Below the pieces are notes generated by a model. It made no database searches. It was not told where the DNA came from and saw only the letters and a program-made list of their open reading frames with translations. Source: Candidatus Paceibacter sp. (GTDB lineage Bacteria; Patescibacteriota; Minisyncoccia; UBA6257; JAGOQP01). From it: DNA of 54,581 bases. The position numbers were made by a program, and so were the translations under genes. The stretch is taken from assembly GCA_020724905.1 (NCBI GenBank), contig DYGB01000005.1, positions 1-54,581 on the forward strand, read 5' to 3'. Below, piece after piece: positions 1 through 46,292 of the stretch (the first letter of the stretch is position 1; the number at the start of each line of letters is the position of its first letter).

Positions 1-84
1 GGAATTGAGCTTCGCTCACCGATTGATATGGTTCCAAGGTCTTGAACTTATTACACCCCTGTGTAGAGGGGTTGATGAGGGAAG

Positions 85-1113
85 TTATTTAGCAGCTTCT
101 TCTTTTTGTTTTTCTTTTATAACCTTGAGAACTTCCTTTTCTATTTCCTTGAGAAGTTTTGAGTCATCTTCAAGTGTTTTTCGGGAAGCTTCTTGTCCTA
201 CCCCTATCTTTGTATCTCCAAAAGAAAATGTATTTCCAGATCGCTTCACAACTCCTTGTTTCAAAGCAACATTGAGAACATCTCCTTCATATGAGATTCC
301 TTTCCCATACATAATATCAAACTCAGTGAGTTTAAATGGGGGAGCTACTTTGTTTTTAGCTACCTTTGCCTTTGTCCTACTCCCAATGATTTCATCTCCT
401 TTCTTTATCTGAGCAATTCTTCGTATATCGATACGAACCGAGGCGTAGAATTTAAGAGCACGTCCCCCCGATGTTGTTTCAGGATTACCCCAGGTCATCG
501 TACCAATCTGTGAACGAATCTGGTTGATAAAGATAATGGTGGTATTTGATTTTGATGCAAGGGCTGCAAGTTTTCGGAGTGCCTGAGACATGAGTCGAGC
601 TTGGAGTCCAATTTGTTGATCACCAATCTCACCTTCAATCTCTGCTCGAGGAGTAAGGGCAGCAACAGAATCAACAACAGCAACATCGATAAGGCTTGAG
701 CGCACAAGGTTTTCAAGAATTTGAAGCGCTTCTTCTCCACTATTTGGTTGAGAGATAAGAAGTTCTTGTATTTTTACACCAATCTTGTGTGCATATTCAG
801 GATCAAGTGCATGTTCAGCATCGATAAAAGCACACTTTCCTCCTCTCTTTTGGGATTGAGCAATGACAGAAAGTGCGAGTGTTGTTTTTCCAGATGATTC
901 TGGACCATAGATTTCAATAATACGTCCTCGAGGAACACCACCAACACCAAGGGCCATATCAAGAGAAAATGAACCAGTTGGAATAGCTTCAACGTGGGCT
1001 ATCTTTTGTTGCCCTAACTTCATAATTGATCCGTCTCCAAATTTACTCTGGAGTTCTTCTATAAGTGAATCAAGATCACTTTTTTGGGTAGGTGTTTTCT
1101 TTGGTTTTTTCAT
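85..1113 (-). CDS. recA: Recombinase RecA
   Basis: Walker [13 protein letters not shown], '[13 protein letters not shown]', '[39 protein letters not shown]'. Confidence 0.98.
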
Positions 1114-1171
1114 ACAAAAAGAATCTTACTATACCTGTAGTGTAGCATGTTTTATTACCCTGCGCACTTAG

Positions 1172-1906
1172 TTAAAACGTAGGGATATCTTCAAGAGAGG
1201 AAGATGGTTGAGGGGTCTGCTGGCTAGGAGAAGGACTTGGAGAAGGAAGAGGAGAGGTACTTGTTGCCTGTGAGGAAAGAAAAATAGTTCGGGTAATTGT
1301 GGTTGTATTTCCCAAAAAGCGCGTAACAGAAATGTTAAATGTATTTGCTCCCTCTGAGAGAGGAACTTCCATACGAAATGATCCATCTTCTTGAACAGGA
1401 ATATCAGTACCATTGATTGAGATGATATCAGATGAACGTCCCGTGCTTCCTTCAATGCTATAGGTATTATCAGAAACAACAAGTGTTTCTTGTGATGGAG
1501 AGCTTACGTAGAGTGAGGGTGTTCCAAAGAAATCTGATAACTGAGGGATAATAACAAATGCAAGAATTAAAAGGACAACCCCTCCAAGGATAAGAGAAAT
1601 TCTTTTTTTATGTTCAACGGCAAATCTATTAGAAGGGAGAATGTCTTCTGCTCCTGACTGAACTACATCATGTTCACGTTTATAGTGAAGCCATAGAGAA
1701 TTAAAGTCAGTATCAAGAGCATGTGCAATTGATTTAATATATCCTCGAATATAGGGACGAGGAGGGAGTTCATCGAGGTTATCGTCAATCAGCGCTTGAA
1801 TATATTTGTGTGATACAGCAGTGCTGTCAGCAAGTTTCTGTATCGACATATTCTTTGACCTGATAAGATCGTGAAGATGTTGTCCAAATGGCTTTAATTC
1901 ATTCAT
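1172..1906 (-). CDS. RodZ-like protein: N-terminal HTH, one TM helix, extracytoplasmic domain
   Basis: N-terminal HTH (SIQKLADSTAVSHKYIQALIDDNLDELPPRPYIRGYIKSIAHAL), TM segment, Ser/Pro-rich tail. Confidence 0.75.
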   Translation of the reverse strand: MNELKPFGQHLHDLIRSKNMSIQKLADSTAVSHKYIQALIDDNLDELPPRPYIRGYIKSIAHALDTDFNSLWLHYKREHDVVQSGAEDILPSNRFAVEHKKRISLILGGVVLLILAFVIIPQLSDFFGTPSLYVSSPSQETLVVSDNTYSIEGSTGRSSDIISINGTDIPVQEDGSFRMEVPLSEGANTFNISVTRFLGNTTTITRTIFLSSQATSTSPLPSPSPSPSQQTPQPSSSLEDIPTF

Positions 1907-1918
1907 ATATATAGTCTA

Positions 1919-4051
1919 CTACTCTTCTAAGAATTTTTCATCACTTTCTTTCCCAATATACACTTCACGAGGTTTTGAGCCTTCTCCTGGTCCAATATGA
2001 CCCTTATTTTCGAGAAGATCAAGGAGACGTGCTGCGCGAGCATATCCTATCTTCAAATGTCTCTGAAGGAATGTTGCAGAAGCCTTGCCCGTCTCTCGTA
2101 CAAGTTCGGTTGCCTCTGGGAGAAGATCATCTTCTTCTGTACTTTCTTCAAATGCTTCAAACATACTATCAGAAGATTCTTCTTGAGAATCATTTCCAAA
2201 ATGTACGTCGTGATCAGGAAGCTCATTATTTTTCTTTATAAATGAGGTAATTTCTTGTATCTCTTCCTCGCTAATAAAGGCTCCTTGGAGTCGCTTTGGC
2301 TTTGAGAGCTGAGCATTCATAAAGAGAAGATCTCCACCTCCCAAAAGTTTTTCAGCACCAGCAGTATCAAGGATAGTACGTGAGTCAATTTGACTTGCTA
2401 CTTGGAGAGCGATACGAGCGGTGATGTTTGCTTTAATAAGGCCAGTAATAACTTCAACTGAAGGTCGTTGTGTTGAGAGAATAAGATGAATACCCGTTGC
2501 ACGAGCCATCTGTGCAAGGCGTACAATAGCATTTTCAATATCACGTCCATACGAAGACATAAGATCAGCCATTTCATCAACAACGATAACAATAAAAGGA
2601 AGTTTCTCCTTTGCTTTTTTATTGTAACTTTGAATATCTCGGGCACCAGCCTTCATCAGTGTTTCATACCGGCGATCCATTTCACTAATAGCCCATCTAA
2701 ATACTGCAAGAGATTTTTTTCCTTCAGTAACTACCGGAGAAATAAGATGAGGGAGTCCGTTATACGCACTGAGTTCAACACGTTTTGGATCGATAAGAAT
2801 GAATCGAAGTGTTTCAGGGGAATTCTTGTACAACAGTGAGATTAATACAGAGTGAAGGGTAATTGATTTCCCCGATCCTGTTGCTCCGGCGATAAGAAGG
2901 TGAGGCATCTTTTCTATATTTGCAAAGAGAGGCTCCCCAGTGACGTCTCGTCCAAGACAGAATCCAAGGGGTCCTGATGAACTAAACTCTGGATATGAGA
3001 TAAGATTTCCAAGTCTCACTACAGCAGCTTTTTTGTTTGGCACTTCTATTCCTACGTATGGTTTTCCAGGGATAGGGGCTTCAATACGGATAGGGTGTGC
3101 AGACAGTGCGAGCGCAAGATCCTGGTTAAGTGCAATGATACGAGAAAGTTTTATTCCTTCTGCGGGACGAAGGGTAAAGCGAGTTACCTTTGGCCCAATG
3201 TTAATCTCTCCCATATCAACAGGAATTCCAAAACTCTCAAGTGTCCTTTTTATAATATTTGATTGTGCGCGTAAATCTCCTGCTGCAGGTTTTTCTGCTG
3301 ATGAGGTAAGAATGTTAAGAGGAGGAGGGGTATAGTTGGCAAAAGAAAAATGAGGAATCTTTGAAGGAGGAGTAAAGACCTCTTCTCGTTCTTGTATCTG
3401 GAGCTCTTCTTCTTTTTTAACTTCTTTTTTCACAGGAGCCTTTTCTTCTGTCTCGGTGGAATCCTTTTGAGCTGCAGCAATATAGGTTTCTTCTTTTTTG
3501 TTGAGGGTTGAAGGGGAAGGTATCTCTTCTTTCTTTGATGAAGAGAAGAAAGATATAACTGCTCGAAGGAAGGAAGAAAAAGAAGTAACAGAGGTGTCAA
3601 AAGCGATAACAGCTCCAATAATCATTGCAAAGAAAAGAATGATACCAGAGGCAAGAGATCCAAACCAATGATCGATATATCCTACGCCTCGTCCAATAAT
3701 TCCTCCAGCGTTATAGGAGAGTACATCAATAAACCCAAGACCAGAGAGAAAGAAAACAACACTTCCAAGGATAATTGGTCCAGAGAGTGTTTTTTCTTCT
3801 TTGCTAGTAAGAAGGAGTATAGCGATACTAAGAAATACAATTGGAAGCAGAAGGTATCCCCACCCAAAGAGGGTTGAGAGAAATGAAAAGAGTCCTTCTC
3901 CAGCACTTCCTGCCTTATCGATACTTGCGAGCCCAAGGATGAGCGCAATCACAATAAAAAAGAGTGCCCAAATACTTCGTTTTGTTTCTGATGAAAGTGA
4001 TAATGAGGGACGGTATGTCTTTAATCGTCCTATTTTCTTTTTACGAGCCAT
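1919..4051 (-). CDS. ftsK: DNA translocase FtsK/SpoIIIE (start trimmed from ORF end 4234 to Met at 4051)
   Basis: N-terminal TM helices, GATGSGKS Walker A, 'VDEMADLM', 'RPSVEVITGLIKANITARIALQVASQIDSRTILD', gamma winged-helix C-terminus. Confidence 0.96.
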   Translation of the reverse strand: MARKKKIGRLKTYRPSLSLSSETKRSIWALFFIVIALILGLASIDKAGSAGEGLFSFLSTLFGWGYLLLPIVFLSIAILLLTSKEEKTLSGPIILGSVVFFLSGLGFIDVLSYNAGGIIGRGVGYIDHWFGSLASGIILFFAMIIGAVIAFDTSVTSFSSFLRAVISFFSSSKKEEIPSPSTLNKKEETYIAAAQKDSTETEEKAPVKKEVKKEEELQIQEREEVFTPPSKIPHFSFANYTPPPLNILTSSAEKPAAGDLRAQSNIIKRTLESFGIPVDMGEINIGPKVTRFTLRPAEGIKLSRIIALNQDLALALSAHPIRIEAPIPGKPYVGIEVPNKKAAVVRLGNLISYPEFSSSGPLGFCLGRDVTGEPLFANIEKMPHLLIAGATGSGKSITLHSVLISLLYKNSPETLRFILIDPKRVELSAYNGLPHLISPVVTEGKKSLAVFRWAISEMDRRYETLMKAGARDIQSYNKKAKEKLPFIVIVVDEMADLMSSYGRDIENAIVRLAQMARATGIHLILSTQRPSVEVITGLIKANITARIALQVASQIDSRTILDTAGAEKLLGGGDLLFMNAQLSKPKRLQGAFISEEEIQEITSFIKKNNELPDHDVHFGNDSQEESSDSMFEAFEESTEEDDLLPEATELVRETGKASATFLQRHLKIGYARAARLLDLLENKGHIGPGEGSKPREVYIGKESDEKFLEE

Positions 4052-5195: not shown

Positions 5196-6473
5196 ATGAA
5201 CAAGAAGTTTTCAGATACAGCCTCCTTTACTCTGGTTGAGTTGCTCGTTGTCATCGGTATTCTTGCCATCCTTACCGCTACCGTTGTTATTATATTAAAT
5301 CCCGCAGAACTTCTTAGGCAAGCCAGAGACTCTAACAGAATGACTGATCTTGCCACCATCGACAAAGCAATCTCTCTTCTTCTCACCCAACAACCAGATA
5401 CTAATCTGGGAACAGCTCAGACTGTGTACGTGTCACTTCCTGACACCTCTTCGACCTGTACTAGTCATACTCTTCCCTCACTTCCCGCAGGATATCAATA
5501 CAATTGTGTCACCGAAGCAAATCTTCAAAATATCAATGGAACAGGTTGGATTCCTGTGGATTTTACCACCACCCCCATCCAATCCCTTCCGGTTCTTCCT
5601 GTTGATCCTAACAATACTGCCACCAACTACTACACCTACACCATGGGAGGTTCGTGGCATCTCCTTACTCTCTTAGAATCAAACAAACACCGTGTTGATG
5701 CAGCAACTGATGGAGGACTCTCCCCAGCTGCCTATGAAACAGGTTCAAATCTCACTCTCTATCCTCCGACCTTCCCCGCATACTGGATCAGAGTCCCTGG
5801 AAGCTCTACCCATGGAACCTCAGACTTTTACGTTATGCAGTATGAAGCAAAGAATGTATCAGGTGTTCCTACTTCTCAACCTTCCCTTACCCCCTGGGTC
5901 TCTATTTCTCAAACCAATGCTATCGCTGAGTGTCAATCCATTGATGCAGATCTTATCACCAACGCTCAATGGCAAACCATCGCATACGACATTCAACAAC
6001 AACCACAAAACTGGTCAGGAGGATCAGTGGGATCAGGCTCTATTCACCGAGGAAACTCAAATACTTCAGCAGCTATGGATGGAACAGACCCTCTCTCAGG
6101 AGTCAACAAGAGAACACACGTCCTTTCCACTGGAGCTGAGATATGGGATATTGCAGGAAATGTATGGGATTGGAACAAAGACACCATTATTGGAACTGAC
6201 AAACCAGTGGGAGGAGGAGCTGCCTGGGTTGAATGGACTACTGTCCTTGATTACGGCTCATTAGATGAAGAAGATGTAAAACCATTTAATACTTCATGGA
6301 ATTCCTCTCAAGGAATTGGTCGTTATTACCAAGGAACTGCAGATGGTACTACGTATGCCTTTCTACGCGGCGGGGGTTGGGCCGATGGCACGGTTGCGGG
6401 GGTTGAGGCGTTGGCTCTGGCCCATATTCCTTCCAGCACGTACAGCTACATTGGGTTCCGTTGTGCCCGGTAG
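5196..6473 (+). CDS. DGR variable (target) protein: prepilin-like N-terminus plus FGE-sulfatase/C-type-lectin domain
   Basis: N-terminal 'FTLVELLVVIGILAILTATVVIILNPAELLRQARDSNR' (type IV prepilin/pseudopilin motif); 'IWDIAGNVWDW' FGE-sulfatase motif; C-terminus 'FLRGGGWADG...IGFRCAR' lies in the VR. Confidence 0.93.
   Translation: MNKKFSDTASFTLVELLVVIGILAILTATVVIILNPAELLRQARDSNRMTDLATIDKAISLLLTQQPDTNLGTAQTVYVSLPDTSSTCTSHTLPSLPAGYQYNCVTEANLQNINGTGWIPVDFTTTPIQSLPVLPVDPNNTATNYYTYTMGGSWHLLTLLESNKHRVDAATDGGLSPAAYETGSNLTLYPPTFPAYWIRVPGSSTHGTSDFYVMQYEAKNVSGVPTSQPSLTPWVSISQTNAIAECQSIDADLITNAQWQTIAYDIQQQPQNWSGGSVGSGSIHRGNSNTSAAMDGTDPLSGVNKRTHVLSTGAEIWDIAGNVWDWNKDTIIGTDKPVGGGAAWVEWTTVLDYGSLDEEDVKPFNTSWNSSQGIGRYYQGTADGTTYAFLRGGGWADGTVAGVEALALAHIPSSTYSYIGFRCAR
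6357..6472 (+). repeat. DGR variable repeat (VR)
   Basis: 116 bp, no indels against TR 6928-7043; 18 mismatches, all at TR adenines; invariant 3' segment attgggttccgttgtgcccggta (IMH). Confidence 0.97.
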
Positions 6474-6516
6474 ACCCGTAGCAATCTAGTTATCTAATAA
6501 TCTTCAAACAATCGAT

Positions 6517-6897
6517 ATGTCTATAAAAGATCTGGTATTATTTCAAAAAACGTATGAGTATTTTTTGTGGATCTTCCCACTCATCAATAAATTTCCTAAA
6601 AATCAACGATTTGTACTCGGACAAGAAATGGAAAGAGAAATTCTTTCTCTTATAAAACTGATCCACTATTTTCAAAAAACATCTGAGAAAAGACAATATA
6701 TTCTTGAACGTATTTCACTTCACATCGACATGATGGCAATTCACATTCGTTTAGCAAAAGATCTTCATTTTATCTCAATACGACACTATGGAATGGGATG
6801 TGACAAAATCAATGAACTGGGACGATTGGTGACAGGATTGAAAAAATATATACATACTTCTCATACCTCAAAAACAAAGGAACAAGTAATGGTGTGA
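6517..6897 (+). CDS. avd: DGR accessory variability determinant (Avd-like four-helix bundle)
   Basis: 126-aa helical protein between VR and TR; 'LVLFQKTYEYFLWIFPLINKFPKNQRFVLGQEMEREILSLIKLI' resembles Avd / 23S-IVS protein family. Confidence 0.87.
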   Translation: MSIKDLVLFQKTYEYFLWIFPLINKFPKNQRFVLGQEMEREILSLIKLIHYFQKTSEKRQYILERISLHIDMMAIHIRLAKDLHFISIRHYGMGCDKINELGRLVTGLKKYIHTSHTSKTKEQVMV

Positions 6898-6927
6898 GAA
6901 GTAGTATGAATCGTCTATAAAGCGGAA

Positions 6928-7043
6928 GCCTTTCTACGCGGCGGGAATTGGAACAATGGCACGAATGCAGGAGTTGAGACGTTGAATCTGAACAATATTC
7001 CTTCCAACACGAACAGCAACATTGGGTTCCGTTGTGCCCGGTA
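6928..7043 (+). repeat. DGR template repeat (TR)
   Basis: AAY-rich template aatTGGaacaatGGC...; matches VR except at 18 of its 31 adenines, 0 changes at 85 non-A positions. Confidence 0.97.
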
Positions 7044-7188
7044 TACATATAGGGAAAAAGTTTGTGGCCCGAATATGAAAAATATATTTTTTTATATCTG
7101 CGCCATCATGTCTACTGATTCATATTATCCCCCCACAAAGAGGGGAACACCGTGCGTGAATACTGTATATGCCATGTGTATACACAGC

Positions 7189-7215
7189 CCTCCCACACAG
7201 GTGTTGTGTGGGAGG
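7189..7215 (+). other. Perfect 11-bp hairpin in the TR-RT spacer
   Basis: CCTCCCACACA-GGTGT-TGTGTGGGAGG. Confidence 0.8.
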
Positions 7216-7232
7216 AAAACACGCTATTTTCT

Positions 7233-8267
7233 ATGGGAATGTATGAGGACATTTATGCATTTGAAAATATCTATACTGCGTACCAGAAGGCACGAAAAGG
7301 AAGAAGGTACAAGAAAGATATTGTGCTATTTGAAAGACATCTTGAGTCACAGTTAAGTAAAATTTCTTTTGTATTAAGAAAAGAACGATATCGTCACGGT
7401 TCATATCGAGAATTTATTGTAAATGATTCGAAAAAGAGGACGATAAGTGCAACATCGTTTCAAGATCGTATTGTACACCATGCAGTATATGCATATATAG
7501 AACCTCTCTTTGAAAAACAATTTATTTATGATTCGTATGTGTGTAGAAAGGGAAAGGGATCTCATCGTGCAGTGAAACGATTAAGACGACACATGTATGG
7601 AGTCAGTGGTGGATATAGAAAAGAGGCATGGTATTTAAAAATGGACGTTGCACAGTATTTCAAAAGCATTGATCATAGAATTCTCAAAGAATTAATATGG
7701 TGTACTATCCATGACTCTCGTACGTTAAAACTTCTTTCTATCATTATTAATAGTCGATGGGATAGAGAGTATAAAGGAAGAAAAACAGGCATTCCGATAG
7801 GAAATCTTACCAGTCAATTATTTGCAAATATATATCTCAATCCCCTTGATCACTATATAAAAGAACAATTGAAGTGTAGATACTATGTACGATATATGGA
7901 TGATATTGTTATTTGTCATTCCGACAGGGCATTTCTTCAAATAGTACACAAAGAAATAGAACGGTATGCAGAAAATACACTTCGTCTCACATTCCATCCT
8001 AATAAAGTTATAATAAAACCAATCCATAAAGGGGTTCCCTTTCTTGGATATATTCTCTATCCACACTACACACGGTTAAGACAATCAACAGTAAAAAGAT
8101 GTAAGTTGAGAATTAAAAAATACAACAAAAGAAACAGTTCCCCAAAAACAATGGAGAGCTCATATATGGCATGGAAAGGGTATGCTTCATATGCAAATGC
8201 ATGGAGAAAAACAGAAATACTATGGAGGCATGTTTACTCATCTAAGTCGGTAACATATAGTAAAACT
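7233..8267 (+). CDS. DGR reverse transcriptase (open to 9404; no stop before the NifS-like domain)
   Basis: 'YLKMDVAQYFKSIDHRIL', 'GIPIGNLTSQLFANIYLNPLDHYIKE' (DGR-type GNLTSQ), catalytic 'YYVRYMDDIVI', 'FHPNKVIIKPIHKGVPFLGYIL'. Confidence 0.95.
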
Positions 8268-9404
8268 ATGAAACAAATATATTTGGATTATGCTGCTACA
8301 ACACCTCCTTCCAAGAGAGTGGTGCAAAGCATGAAAAAAGCACTATCTATATGGGGGAATCCTTCATCCCTTCATCACTATGGACAGGAAGCTTTTAACC
8401 TTCTTGAGAAATCTCGTAGTGCAATTGCAACATCCTTAGGGGTAGAAGAAAATAATGTCATCTTTTGCTCTTCAGCAACTGAATGTTCAAACCTCTATCT
8501 ACGGTCTATAGCACAAGAATATAAAAAGGAAAAAGGACATATTCCTCATATTGTTATCTCAGATCTTGAACATGCTGGGGTATATGAAACTGCTTACGCA
8601 CTTGAAAAAGAGGGGAAGGTAACACTGTCTCTTGTTTCTTCTCATAATGGGAGAGTGCGCCTTGAGGATGTGGATCGTGCTCTTACTCCACATACTGCAT
8701 TAGTTGCAGTGATTGCGGTTCAAAATGAAATTGGAACAGTGCAACCATACAATGAGATAGCCGAAATGATTCAAAAGAAGCGAGGGGAAGGTAGGTTTCC
8801 TCTTTTTTATACGGATGCAGTACAGGCGATAGGGCTTGGGGATCTAAAAAATATAGCCGCTGATGCATATTCTTTTTCAGGACATAAGATATATGGTCCT
8901 AAAGGAGTAGGAGTTTTGGTGATAAAAAATACTACTACATTGCACCCTCTCATTACAGGAGGTGGTCAAGAAAGAGGAGTGCGCTCAGGGACAGAAAACA
9001 TTCTTGCAATTGTTGGGTGCGCTCAAGCCCTCAAAGAGATAGAAGAAAAAAGAAAGCAGGCATCTATACAAACCCAATCCCTACAAACATATTTGAAAGA
9101 AAAAATAAAAAAAATAAAAGACATACATATCCTTGGAGATGAGAGTGCTCTTTCTCCACATATTTTAACAGTGTGGAGCCCAGCATTTCCTCCACACGTT
9201 GCACATGCCCTGGACAGCAAAGGGATTGCTGTATCTTCAGGGTCAGCGTGTGCTCAACGAGGACATAAAAAATCACGTATTCTTTCTTCTCTTGGGATAG
9301 GAGAGGAAGAAACTACAAAAACGATACGCATTAGTATTGGAAGAGAAACAAAAAAAGCTGATATTGACCGTCTCATCAAAACGCTTATAATACTAGTACA
9401 GTAA
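8268..9404 (+). CDS. Cysteine desulfurase, NifS/IscS family (in frame with the upstream RT)
   Basis: 'IYLDYAATTPPS', 'HAGVYETAYAL', 'YSFSGHKIYGPKGVG', 'SSGSACAQRGHKKSRIL'; candidate internal ATG at 8268. Confidence 0.93.
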   Translation: MKQIYLDYAATTPPSKRVVQSMKKALSIWGNPSSLHHYGQEAFNLLEKSRSAIATSLGVEENNVIFCSSATECSNLYLRSIAQEYKKEKGHIPHIVISDLEHAGVYETAYALEKEGKVTLSLVSSHNGRVRLEDVDRALTPHTALVAVIAVQNEIGTVQPYNEIAEMIQKKRGEGRFPLFYTDAVQAIGLGDLKNIAADAYSFSGHKIYGPKGVGVLVIKNTTTLHPLITGGGQERGVRSGTENILAIVGCAQALKEIEEKRKQASIQTQSLQTYLKEKIKKIKDIHILGDESALSPHILTVWSPAFPPHVAHALDSKGIAVSSGSACAQRGHKKSRILSSLGIGEEETTKTIRISIGRETKKADIDRLIKTLIILVQ

Positions 9405-44506: not shown

Positions 44507-44580
44507 GGCCCCATCGTCTAGCCTGGTCAGGACGCAAGGTTTTCATCCTTGAAACACGGGTTCAAATCCCGTTGGGGTCA
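44507..44580 (+). tRNA. tRNA-Glu(TTC)
   Basis: GGCCCCA...TGGGGTC A, loop TTTTCAT; 3' tail repeated downstream three times. Confidence 0.95.
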
Positions 44581-44679
44581 CAAAGAGGGAAATATATACA
44601 GTACTTGACTTTTCTATAAATATATGTAACAATATATACATAGTTATTTTATAATTTCATACAACAAAAAGGTGAAGAA

Positions 44680-44904
44680 ATGAAAAAAACATCAAGTTTT
44701 TTAGTAGACGAACATAATCCCCCAACTTCCCAAAACACTGTTAAGCATGAGAAATCTCCGTTTGATGACCCAGAGATTAGGGAACTTTGGGATATGGTTT
44801 TTAACGATAAGGATAGGATAGAACGTGAAAAGAAAGAAATGGAACATGAAATGGACCTATTATTAGAAAAAGGACAGGGACGTGGTACCGGTAGTTGGTT
44901 ATGA
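44680..44904 (+). CDS. Cassette A small ORF (74 aa, charged)
   Basis: own TTGACT promoter region, RBS aaaggtgaag, followed by terminator 44937-44967. Confidence 0.65.
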   Translation: MKKTSSFLVDEHNPPTSQNTVKHEKSPFDDPEIRELWDMVFNDKDRIEREKKEMEHEMDLLLEKGQGRGTGSWL

Positions 44905-44970
44905 AAGAAAAAACAAGGTGTTATTGATTTATTTTAATCCTCTCTTTTATTAAAAGAGGGGATTTTTTAT

Positions 44971-45029
44971 CCAAATACCACTAAGCTCTCACATGCCCGG
45001 TTCCAAAGTTGTCCCGTTGGGGTCACAAG
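44971..45029 (+). repeat. tRNA-Glu 3'-tail repeat R1
   Basis: ...ggttccaaagttgtcccgttggggtcacaa; last 17 nt (tcccgttggggtcacaa) identical to the tRNA-Glu 3' end and flank. Confidence 0.88.
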
Positions 45030-45115
45030 ATTAATATTGACTTATAATTAATAACTATGTATAATAGATACATAGCTCTTTTAAATATTTAAAAACAAAC
45101 ATAGAGAGGAATCTC

Positions 45116-45763
45116 ATGGAACTATCTATAATATGTATCGCTATCGGTATAGGGTTGGTTGTCTCTCTGCTTATATATAGAAGCAGTAAAAAGAAAGCCA
45201 AAGAAGAGGAACTACTAGTGCCCTTTAGAGTGTTCTGGAATGATCAAATAGAAATACTTTTAAACAACCATTTTCCTTTAGCTGTTATCAAACAACTCCA
45301 GCTGAAGAGAGAAAAGATCCTTGCAATAGCAAAGGAATTAGATGTTCCGGAAGGTCACACGCCATTTATTCTTATTATCCCTAAAAAATACTGGGATAAA
45401 GAATATCCAAAACGCACAGGGGTTGATGTTAATAACATTGAAAACATAGTAGATACCCCCTCAGAGCCATATGCGATATTTGATATCGAGGATGGTTCAA
45501 AACATCGTGGATATTCACCTAGGGAAGCACAAAAAATATTAGAAGAAGAAGGTAGATCACCTCTTACTGCAGAAGAATGTATTATGTTTGCGCAGTACGT
45601 GCCTGTACTAAAAGACCATCATCTTAACTGTACCGGATCCCGCTGTCGGGGTGACGTCCCCGGTGTCTACCTGTCTGGCGGTGAGATGCCCAGGCTCAAC
45701 TGGCGCAGCCTCGAGTTTGGCGGTGTCGGGTGGGGGTCTCCCTCGTGCCGCAGTCGGCACTAG
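45116..45763 (+). CDS. Cassette B: membrane-anchored protein with candidate hypervariable C-terminus
   Basis: N-terminal TM; AT-rich body; last ~45 codons GC-rich, A-poor and mostly NNC/NNT. Confidence 0.75.
   Translation: MELSIICIAIGIGLVVSLLIYRSSKKKAKEEELLVPFRVFWNDQIEILLNNHFPLAVIKQLQLKREKILAIAKELDVPEGHTPFILIIPKKYWDKEYPKRTGVDVNNIENIVDTPSEPYAIFDIEDGSKHRGYSPREAQKILEEEGRSPLTAEECIMFAQYVPVLKDHHLNCTGSRCRGDVPGVYLSGGEMPRLNWRSLEFGGVGWGSPSCRSRH
45632..45763 (+). other. Candidate DGR variable region with no TR in this window
   Basis: about 13 A in 132 nt, 31 of 44 codons end in C/T; perfect hairpin GTGCCG-CAGT-CGGCAC (45745-45760) at the 3' end, directly before the stop. Confidence 0.5.
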
Positions 45764-45790
45764 GTCCCTTTGCCCTCGGTTTGTATCATA

Positions 45791-45822
45791 GACGGTTATA
45801 TTACATATGACCGTCTTTTTTT
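45791..45822 (+). terminator. Cassette B terminator GACGGT...ACCGTC-TTTTTTT
   Basis: stem-loop plus T-run. Confidence 0.8.
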
Positions 45823-45833
45823 ATCCAAACACT

Positions 45834-45882
45834 ACTAAATTGGCATACAAATGGTTCCAAAGTTGTCCCGTTGGGGTCACAA
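45834..45882 (+). repeat. tRNA-Glu 3'-tail repeat R2
   Basis: 49 nt identical to R3 (46244-46292): actaaattggcatacaaatggttccaaagttgtcccgttggggtcacaa. Confidence 0.93.
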
Positions 45883-45986
45883 AGAGAGGGGATACATACC
45901 ATATCTTGACTTTTATATAAATATATGTAATAATATATATGGAAAATTTACATATTTTTTATAACAAAAACAATAAGAGGTAAAAA

Positions 45987-46184
45987 ATGAAAAAGCATCA
46001 AGTTTCTTTGGAAGATGAATTTTTTAACAAAAAAATTATCTTAGCGCCAGACGACTTCGAAGATGATGGAATTGAAGAAGAAATACTCACTCCTATTATA
46101 GAATATGATGTTGCGGAACGTGAAATTGGTCGTTCCCTTCAGGAAAAATATTCTAGGGAAAACTGGATGTATGAAAAATGGTGA
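45987..46184 (+). CDS. Cassette C small acidic ORF (65 aa)
   Basis: promoter region near-identical to cassette A; RBS; terminator 46205-46232. Confidence 0.65.
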   Translation: MKKHQVSLEDEFFNKKIILAPDDFEDDGIEEEILTPIIEYDVAEREIGRSLQEKYSRENWMYEKW

Positions 46185-46204
46185 TATTTTGCCTTATACC
46201 TTTG

Positions 46205-46232
46205 CCCCCACTTACTTGTGGGGGATTTTTTT
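46205..46232 (+). terminator. Cassette C terminator CCCCCAC-ttactt-GTGGGGG-ATTTTTTT
   Basis: perfect 7-bp stem plus T-run. Confidence 0.85.
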
Positions 46233-46243
46233 ATTTAAAAACC

Positions 46244-46292
46244 ACTAAATTGGCATACAAATGGTTCCAAAGTTGTCCCGTTGGGGTCACAA
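46244..46292 (+). repeat. tRNA-Glu 3'-tail repeat R3
   Basis: identical to R2. Confidence 0.93.

Follow-up and report, generated by a model that had tools for sequence, protein, structure and literature searches.

What has made the last 44 codons of a small Patescibacteria gene so unlike the codons before them, and how could a tail of this kind be explained when its presumed template is nowhere to be seen? The window, by which we mean the whole 54.6-kb stretch of DNA analysed, is contig C6 of a 575-kb Patescibacteria assembly (9 contigs, 98.5% complete). The features at the 3′ end of the gene are as follows.

45116..45763, forward strand: DUF5701-family gene of 215 aa, putative target of a diversity-generating retroelement (DGR) (PF18959, E 6e-10; ORF list).
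45629..45755, forward strand: VR1, the proposed variable region (VR) (84% copy on contig C7; codon signature; homologous confirmed VRs).
45730..45755, forward strand: GC-rich 3′ part of the VR, likely the IMH (initiation of mutagenic homing) (VR1/VR2 alignment).
45745..45760, forward strand: hairpin GTGCCG-CAGT-CGGCAC, spanning the VR 3′ end directly before the TAG (sequence scan, folding).

The body of the gene is AT-rich, as the preliminary description had stated: its A content is 36%, and C is the last base in 24 of its 171 codons. The last 44 codons (45629–45760, followed by the TAG stop at 45761–45763) are GC-rich and contain 13 A; 21 of them end in C and 31 in C or T, the latter count agreeing with the one reported earlier. 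The A-poor, GC-rich character of the tail was thus described correctly, but its start had been placed at 45632, one codon late. No other 132-nt stretch of the 54.6-kb window reaches 88 G+C, and only one other has 13 A or fewer. VR1 is coding sequence and takes up the 3′-terminal part of the gene, which closes at 45763. The encoded protein scores 39.7 bits against PF18959 (DUF5701), above the curated cut-off of 27.4, and is therefore a member of this family. It is laid out as an N-terminal hydrophobic helix, then lysines, and the C-terminal VR, an order that suggests a membrane anchor with the remainder of the protein in the cytoplasm.

A search of the whole assembly with the VR1 tail region returned the tail itself and one second copy, on contig C7. 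This copy, VR2, is 84% identical over 159 nt and forms the 3′ end of another DUF5701 gene (47.2 bits), whose product lacks the hydrophobic N-terminal helix and is 46% identical to the VR1 protein overall. At the DNA level, the bodies of the two genes are 54–56% identical and the tails 83%. Where the two proteins share a residue, the same codon is used at 24/26 positions in the tail versus 30/68 in the body (p = 1.5e-5), and differences at codon positions 1, 2 and 3 number 10, 10 and 2 in the tail, compared to 91, 63 and 101 in the body. A conserved domain that evolves in the ordinary way yields the opposite of this pattern, which is the one given by copying from a template with errors at the adenines of AAY-type codons. 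The VR1/VR2 pair can thereby stand in for the missing VR/template pair, and the shared codons, together with the 20 of 22 tail differences at positions 1–2, make it probable that both tails were copied from one template, after the two genes had diverged. Silent divergence is nearly nil, which dates the last rewriting of the tails as recent compared to the age of the two paralogues.

The same signature is seen in a two-target DGR whose template is known (G327; 33/33 same codons; differences 5, 7 and 0), and homologue pairs of normal A content (G248–G367 and G463–G408) do not show it. About 16 of the 44 residues differ between VR1 and VR2, in a constant frame, GSR..VP...L...P.L.W...WGS.SC. The types of difference fit the DGR spectrum moderately only (overall p = 0.04), with three C/T differences versus 0.5 expected, a small excess that hints at a few ordinary mutations since rewriting. 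On contig C5, the genome's third DUF5701 gene ends in a tail of ordinary composition, with 45% GC and 26% A.

A profile built on the VR1-type tail and run against 392 class genomes retrieved relatives, some of them with a second, short A-rich copy near by. Five complete DUF5701 DGRs were read out, and 111 of the 115 mismatches over their six VR/template repeat (TR) pairs lie at template A.

G327: two DUF5701 targets with a single TR and a single RT (reverse transcriptase); mismatches at template A 11/11 and 15/15.
G415: DUF5701 DGR; 24/24.
G017, Candidatus Harrisonbacteria JACROC01: DUF5701 DGR; 24/25.
G545: DUF5701 DGR, with the RT split into two frames; 22/23.
L122, IMG/VR contig: DUF5701 DGR; 15/17.

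Like the VR1 locus, all five have the DUF5701 domain with its VR in the corresponding C-terminal position, and their tails are A-poor and GC-rich and share the frame residues. Unlike it, they have their own TR and RT within ~3 kb, neither of which occurs in the VR1 assembly, and it is only the VR1 gene that sits in a tRNA-Glu cassette array. On L122, positions 1–3789 hold an endolysin-like amidase along with the complete DGR (target, RT, bAvd and TR). The interpretation of the tail as a DGR variable region, made before any of these loci were compared, is borne out by homologous VRs that have an A-rich TR and an RT of their own, and by a second VR in the genome that looks like a product of the same template. 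Conserved, invariant C-termini, which would have spoken against it, were not what we saw: the DGR-linked homologues vary at template adenines. Profile scans of the genome contigs returned just the Harrisonbacteria locus for a four-row protein query and no match for a two-row one. A profile search of the PDB found no relative, and a model predicted from two sequences had a pLDDT of 35, which made it unusable for assigning a C-type lectin (CLec) fold.

The 3′ limit of VR1 was placed by analogy with G415, in which TR/VR identity stops at a homologous ...GTAGTC. Over 45730–45755, VR1 and VR2 are identical save for one A/G at 45752, and this segment is likely to act as the IMH, judging from the alignment. 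The hairpin at the VR end keeps its stem in VR2, with a CGGT loop in place of CAGT; its folding z is −3.3, and the 54.6 kb contain one other hairpin with a 6-bp stem of at least five G-C pairs and a 4-nt loop. Near a VR 3′ end, the hairpin was seen in VR1 and VR2 only; we looked for it in the confirmed DUF5701 DGRs of relatives and did not find it, and rejected it as a hallmark of this DGR family. The perfect hairpin before the stop, as described earlier, is real; its proposed likeness to DGR hairpins is a weak detail.

The genome encodes two RTs, each part of a DGR that has a different template. One of these DGRs lies in the window.

6357–6468: VR of the local DGR (TR/VR comparison).
6517–6897: bAvd gene of the local DGR.
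6928..7039, forward strand: TR of the local DGR (18/18 mismatches at A; not the partner of VR1).
Within 7152–9404: RT of the local DGR.

The local DGR (6357–9404) resembles the VR1 system in belonging to the same genome, in its C-terminal VR and in its own adenine-only mismatches, but its target is an FGE-sulfatase (C-type-lectin-like) protein, it has its own TR, and its VR sequence is unrelated. Its RT is open in frame into a NifS/IscS cysteine desulfurase (7152–9404), as a fusion or as two genes with an internal start. The other DGR, on contig C4 (L006, G000:C4, 5460–7911), is complete, with its own VR, TR and RT and 16/18 mismatches at A; its target matches no Pfam family above cut-off.

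Neither the window nor C4 holds a match to VR1 that could be its partner TR. The preliminary description had already set aside the local TR (given there as 6928–7043), in agreement with our genome searches, in which the tail returned itself and the C7 copy alone. It had also placed a second TR and RT elsewhere; no A-rich template or DUF5701-type RT turned up in the (not quite complete) assembly. No near-copy of VR1 with mismatches at adenines, and no DGR RT associated with the VR1 target, was found in the 98.5%-complete assembly, and neither of the two RTs is of the DUF5701 type. A phylogeny of 20 RTs puts the ones that accompany DUF5701 targets outside the well-supported group holding the C4 RT; the window RT sits on a long branch of unsure placement. 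A template inferred from VR1 and VR2 had no further match in the assembly or in 13 genomes of the family, and a slightly different version of it had none in 389 genomes of the phylum. The genomes sampled for comparison with the window number one per species. The IMH pattern gave a single match in the 392 class genomes (L030), which we rejected as a chance match in a membrane protein gene.

Taken together, we put the probability at about 0.9 that 45629–45755 is the VR of a DUF5701-family DGR target, rewritten by mutagenic retrohoming, as was its paralogue on C7. This process is established for DGRs (PMC8144416, PMC3240598), and we infer that it has run in this organism. A DGR RT would copy an A-rich template RNA and make errors at its adenines; the resulting cDNA would replace the 3′ end of the VR1 gene and of the diverged C7 paralogue, changing ~16 of 44 residues and retaining the frame. 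The rewritten DUF5701 tail would then serve as a diversified binding surface. The TR and RT may be hidden in an assembly gap or may have been lost recently, two possibilities that appear about equally likely; supply in trans appears less so.

Recent loss would make VR1 a fossil, a VR that a DGR once diversified and that is fixed now that the RT and TR have disappeared; this is the same object with a different present activity. We give this somewhat less than an even chance. It is consistent with the absence of both the TR and a third RT from a 98.5%-complete assembly, with the slight surplus of C/T differences between VR1 and VR2, and with relatives in which orphan tails and broken RTs indicate that DGR loss is common: four genomes (G295, G267, G265 and G373; 95–100% complete) have A-poor DUF5701 tails and zero RT matches, the RTs of G290 and G466 that come closest to the DUF5701 ones are split, in G298 a truncated RT adjoins its VR, and the RT of G545 is likewise broken. 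Against this, metagenome assemblies are often broken at DGR repeats, and VR1 and VR2 have just two third-position differences, so that any loss must have been recent compared to the age of the paralogues.

Rewriting of both tails in trans, by the RT and TR of another replicon such as a phage, is unlikely, as is the broader idea that DUF5701 genes are mobile VR carriers diversified in trans by phage-like or other elements, with target and mutator partly in different genomes, which we consider doubtful to the same degree. Trans supply gains some support from the complete DUF5701 DGR on the amidase-bearing IMG/VR contig and from the position of VR1 in a tRNA-linked array, whose parts are listed here.

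44507–44581: tRNA-Glu.
44999, 45853 and 46263: exact 29-bp repeats closing three units, their last 17 nt copying the tRNA 3′ end.
45028..45881, forward strand: cassette B, which holds the VR1 gene, one of three tandem units after the tRNA-Glu (repeats, tRNA).

Across 44507–46291, the tandem units of 445, 854 and 410 bp carry one small gene each, and the 29-bp repeat occurs nowhere else in the genome; the array looks as if mini-cassettes had integrated repeatedly at the tRNA gene. A third point comes from G241, a genome of another family, in which one contig ends in a TR-like sequence (L033, G241:C14, 20–138). This sequence fits the orphan VRs of G290 and G373 with mismatches at its adenines in 16/16 and 15/15 cases, a fit that could reflect horizontal spread of templates or mis-binning. 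No VR matching it was present in the G241 pieces examined. Speaking against trans supply, exact-pattern searches for the VR1 template and IMH found nothing in viral contigs, no protein relatives were found in phages or plasmids, and the G241 sequence, lying at a contig end, may be mis-binned.

That the tail is no VR but a conserved domain like any other, or GC-rich DNA gained by recombination, is very improbable: the tail does belong to DUF5701, and in many DGR-less members of the family the related tail has a normal A content, but ordinary descent or selection would leave mostly silent differences, the reverse of what VR1 and VR2 display, and acquisition alone leaves unexplained two copies that differ almost solely at amino-acid-changing sites.

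On the rewritten-VR reading, two paralogues with an inverted silent/non-silent pattern are enough to identify a VR whose template is missing, and several near-complete Patescibacteria carry such VRs with no RT detected. As surveys that start from RTs would miss them, template-less VRs open the DGR life cycle to testing, from gain and use to loss and supply in trans. DGRs in Patescibacteria are already well known; DUF5701 is not mentioned in the literature searched, to which most subscription journals are external, and we found there no description of DUF5701 as a VR scaffold or of recurrent template-less VRs, a novelty that is partly checkable.

Among characterised systems, the target of the Bordetella phage BPP-1 DGR (Guo et al. 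2011, PMC3240598) likewise has its VR at the gene 3′ end, along with a TAG stop and, close to where the VR ends, a GC-rich hairpin with a 4-nt loop. The phage DGR hairpins have 7–10-bp stems and GRNA loops and lie 4–34 bp past the VR (PMC3240598); that of VR1 and VR2 differs in its 6-bp stem, its CAGT or CGGT loop and its overlap with the inferred VR end. The clade 2 DGRs of Patescibacteria (PMC8144416) also resemble the VR1 system, being cell-encoded in CPR bacteria with a C-terminal VR. Their targets were reported by Roux et al. (2021) to be typically without a recognisable conserved domain (PMC8144416), whereas the DUF5701 targets described here match PF18959, giving CPR DGR targets a named domain family and a searchable VR scaffold.
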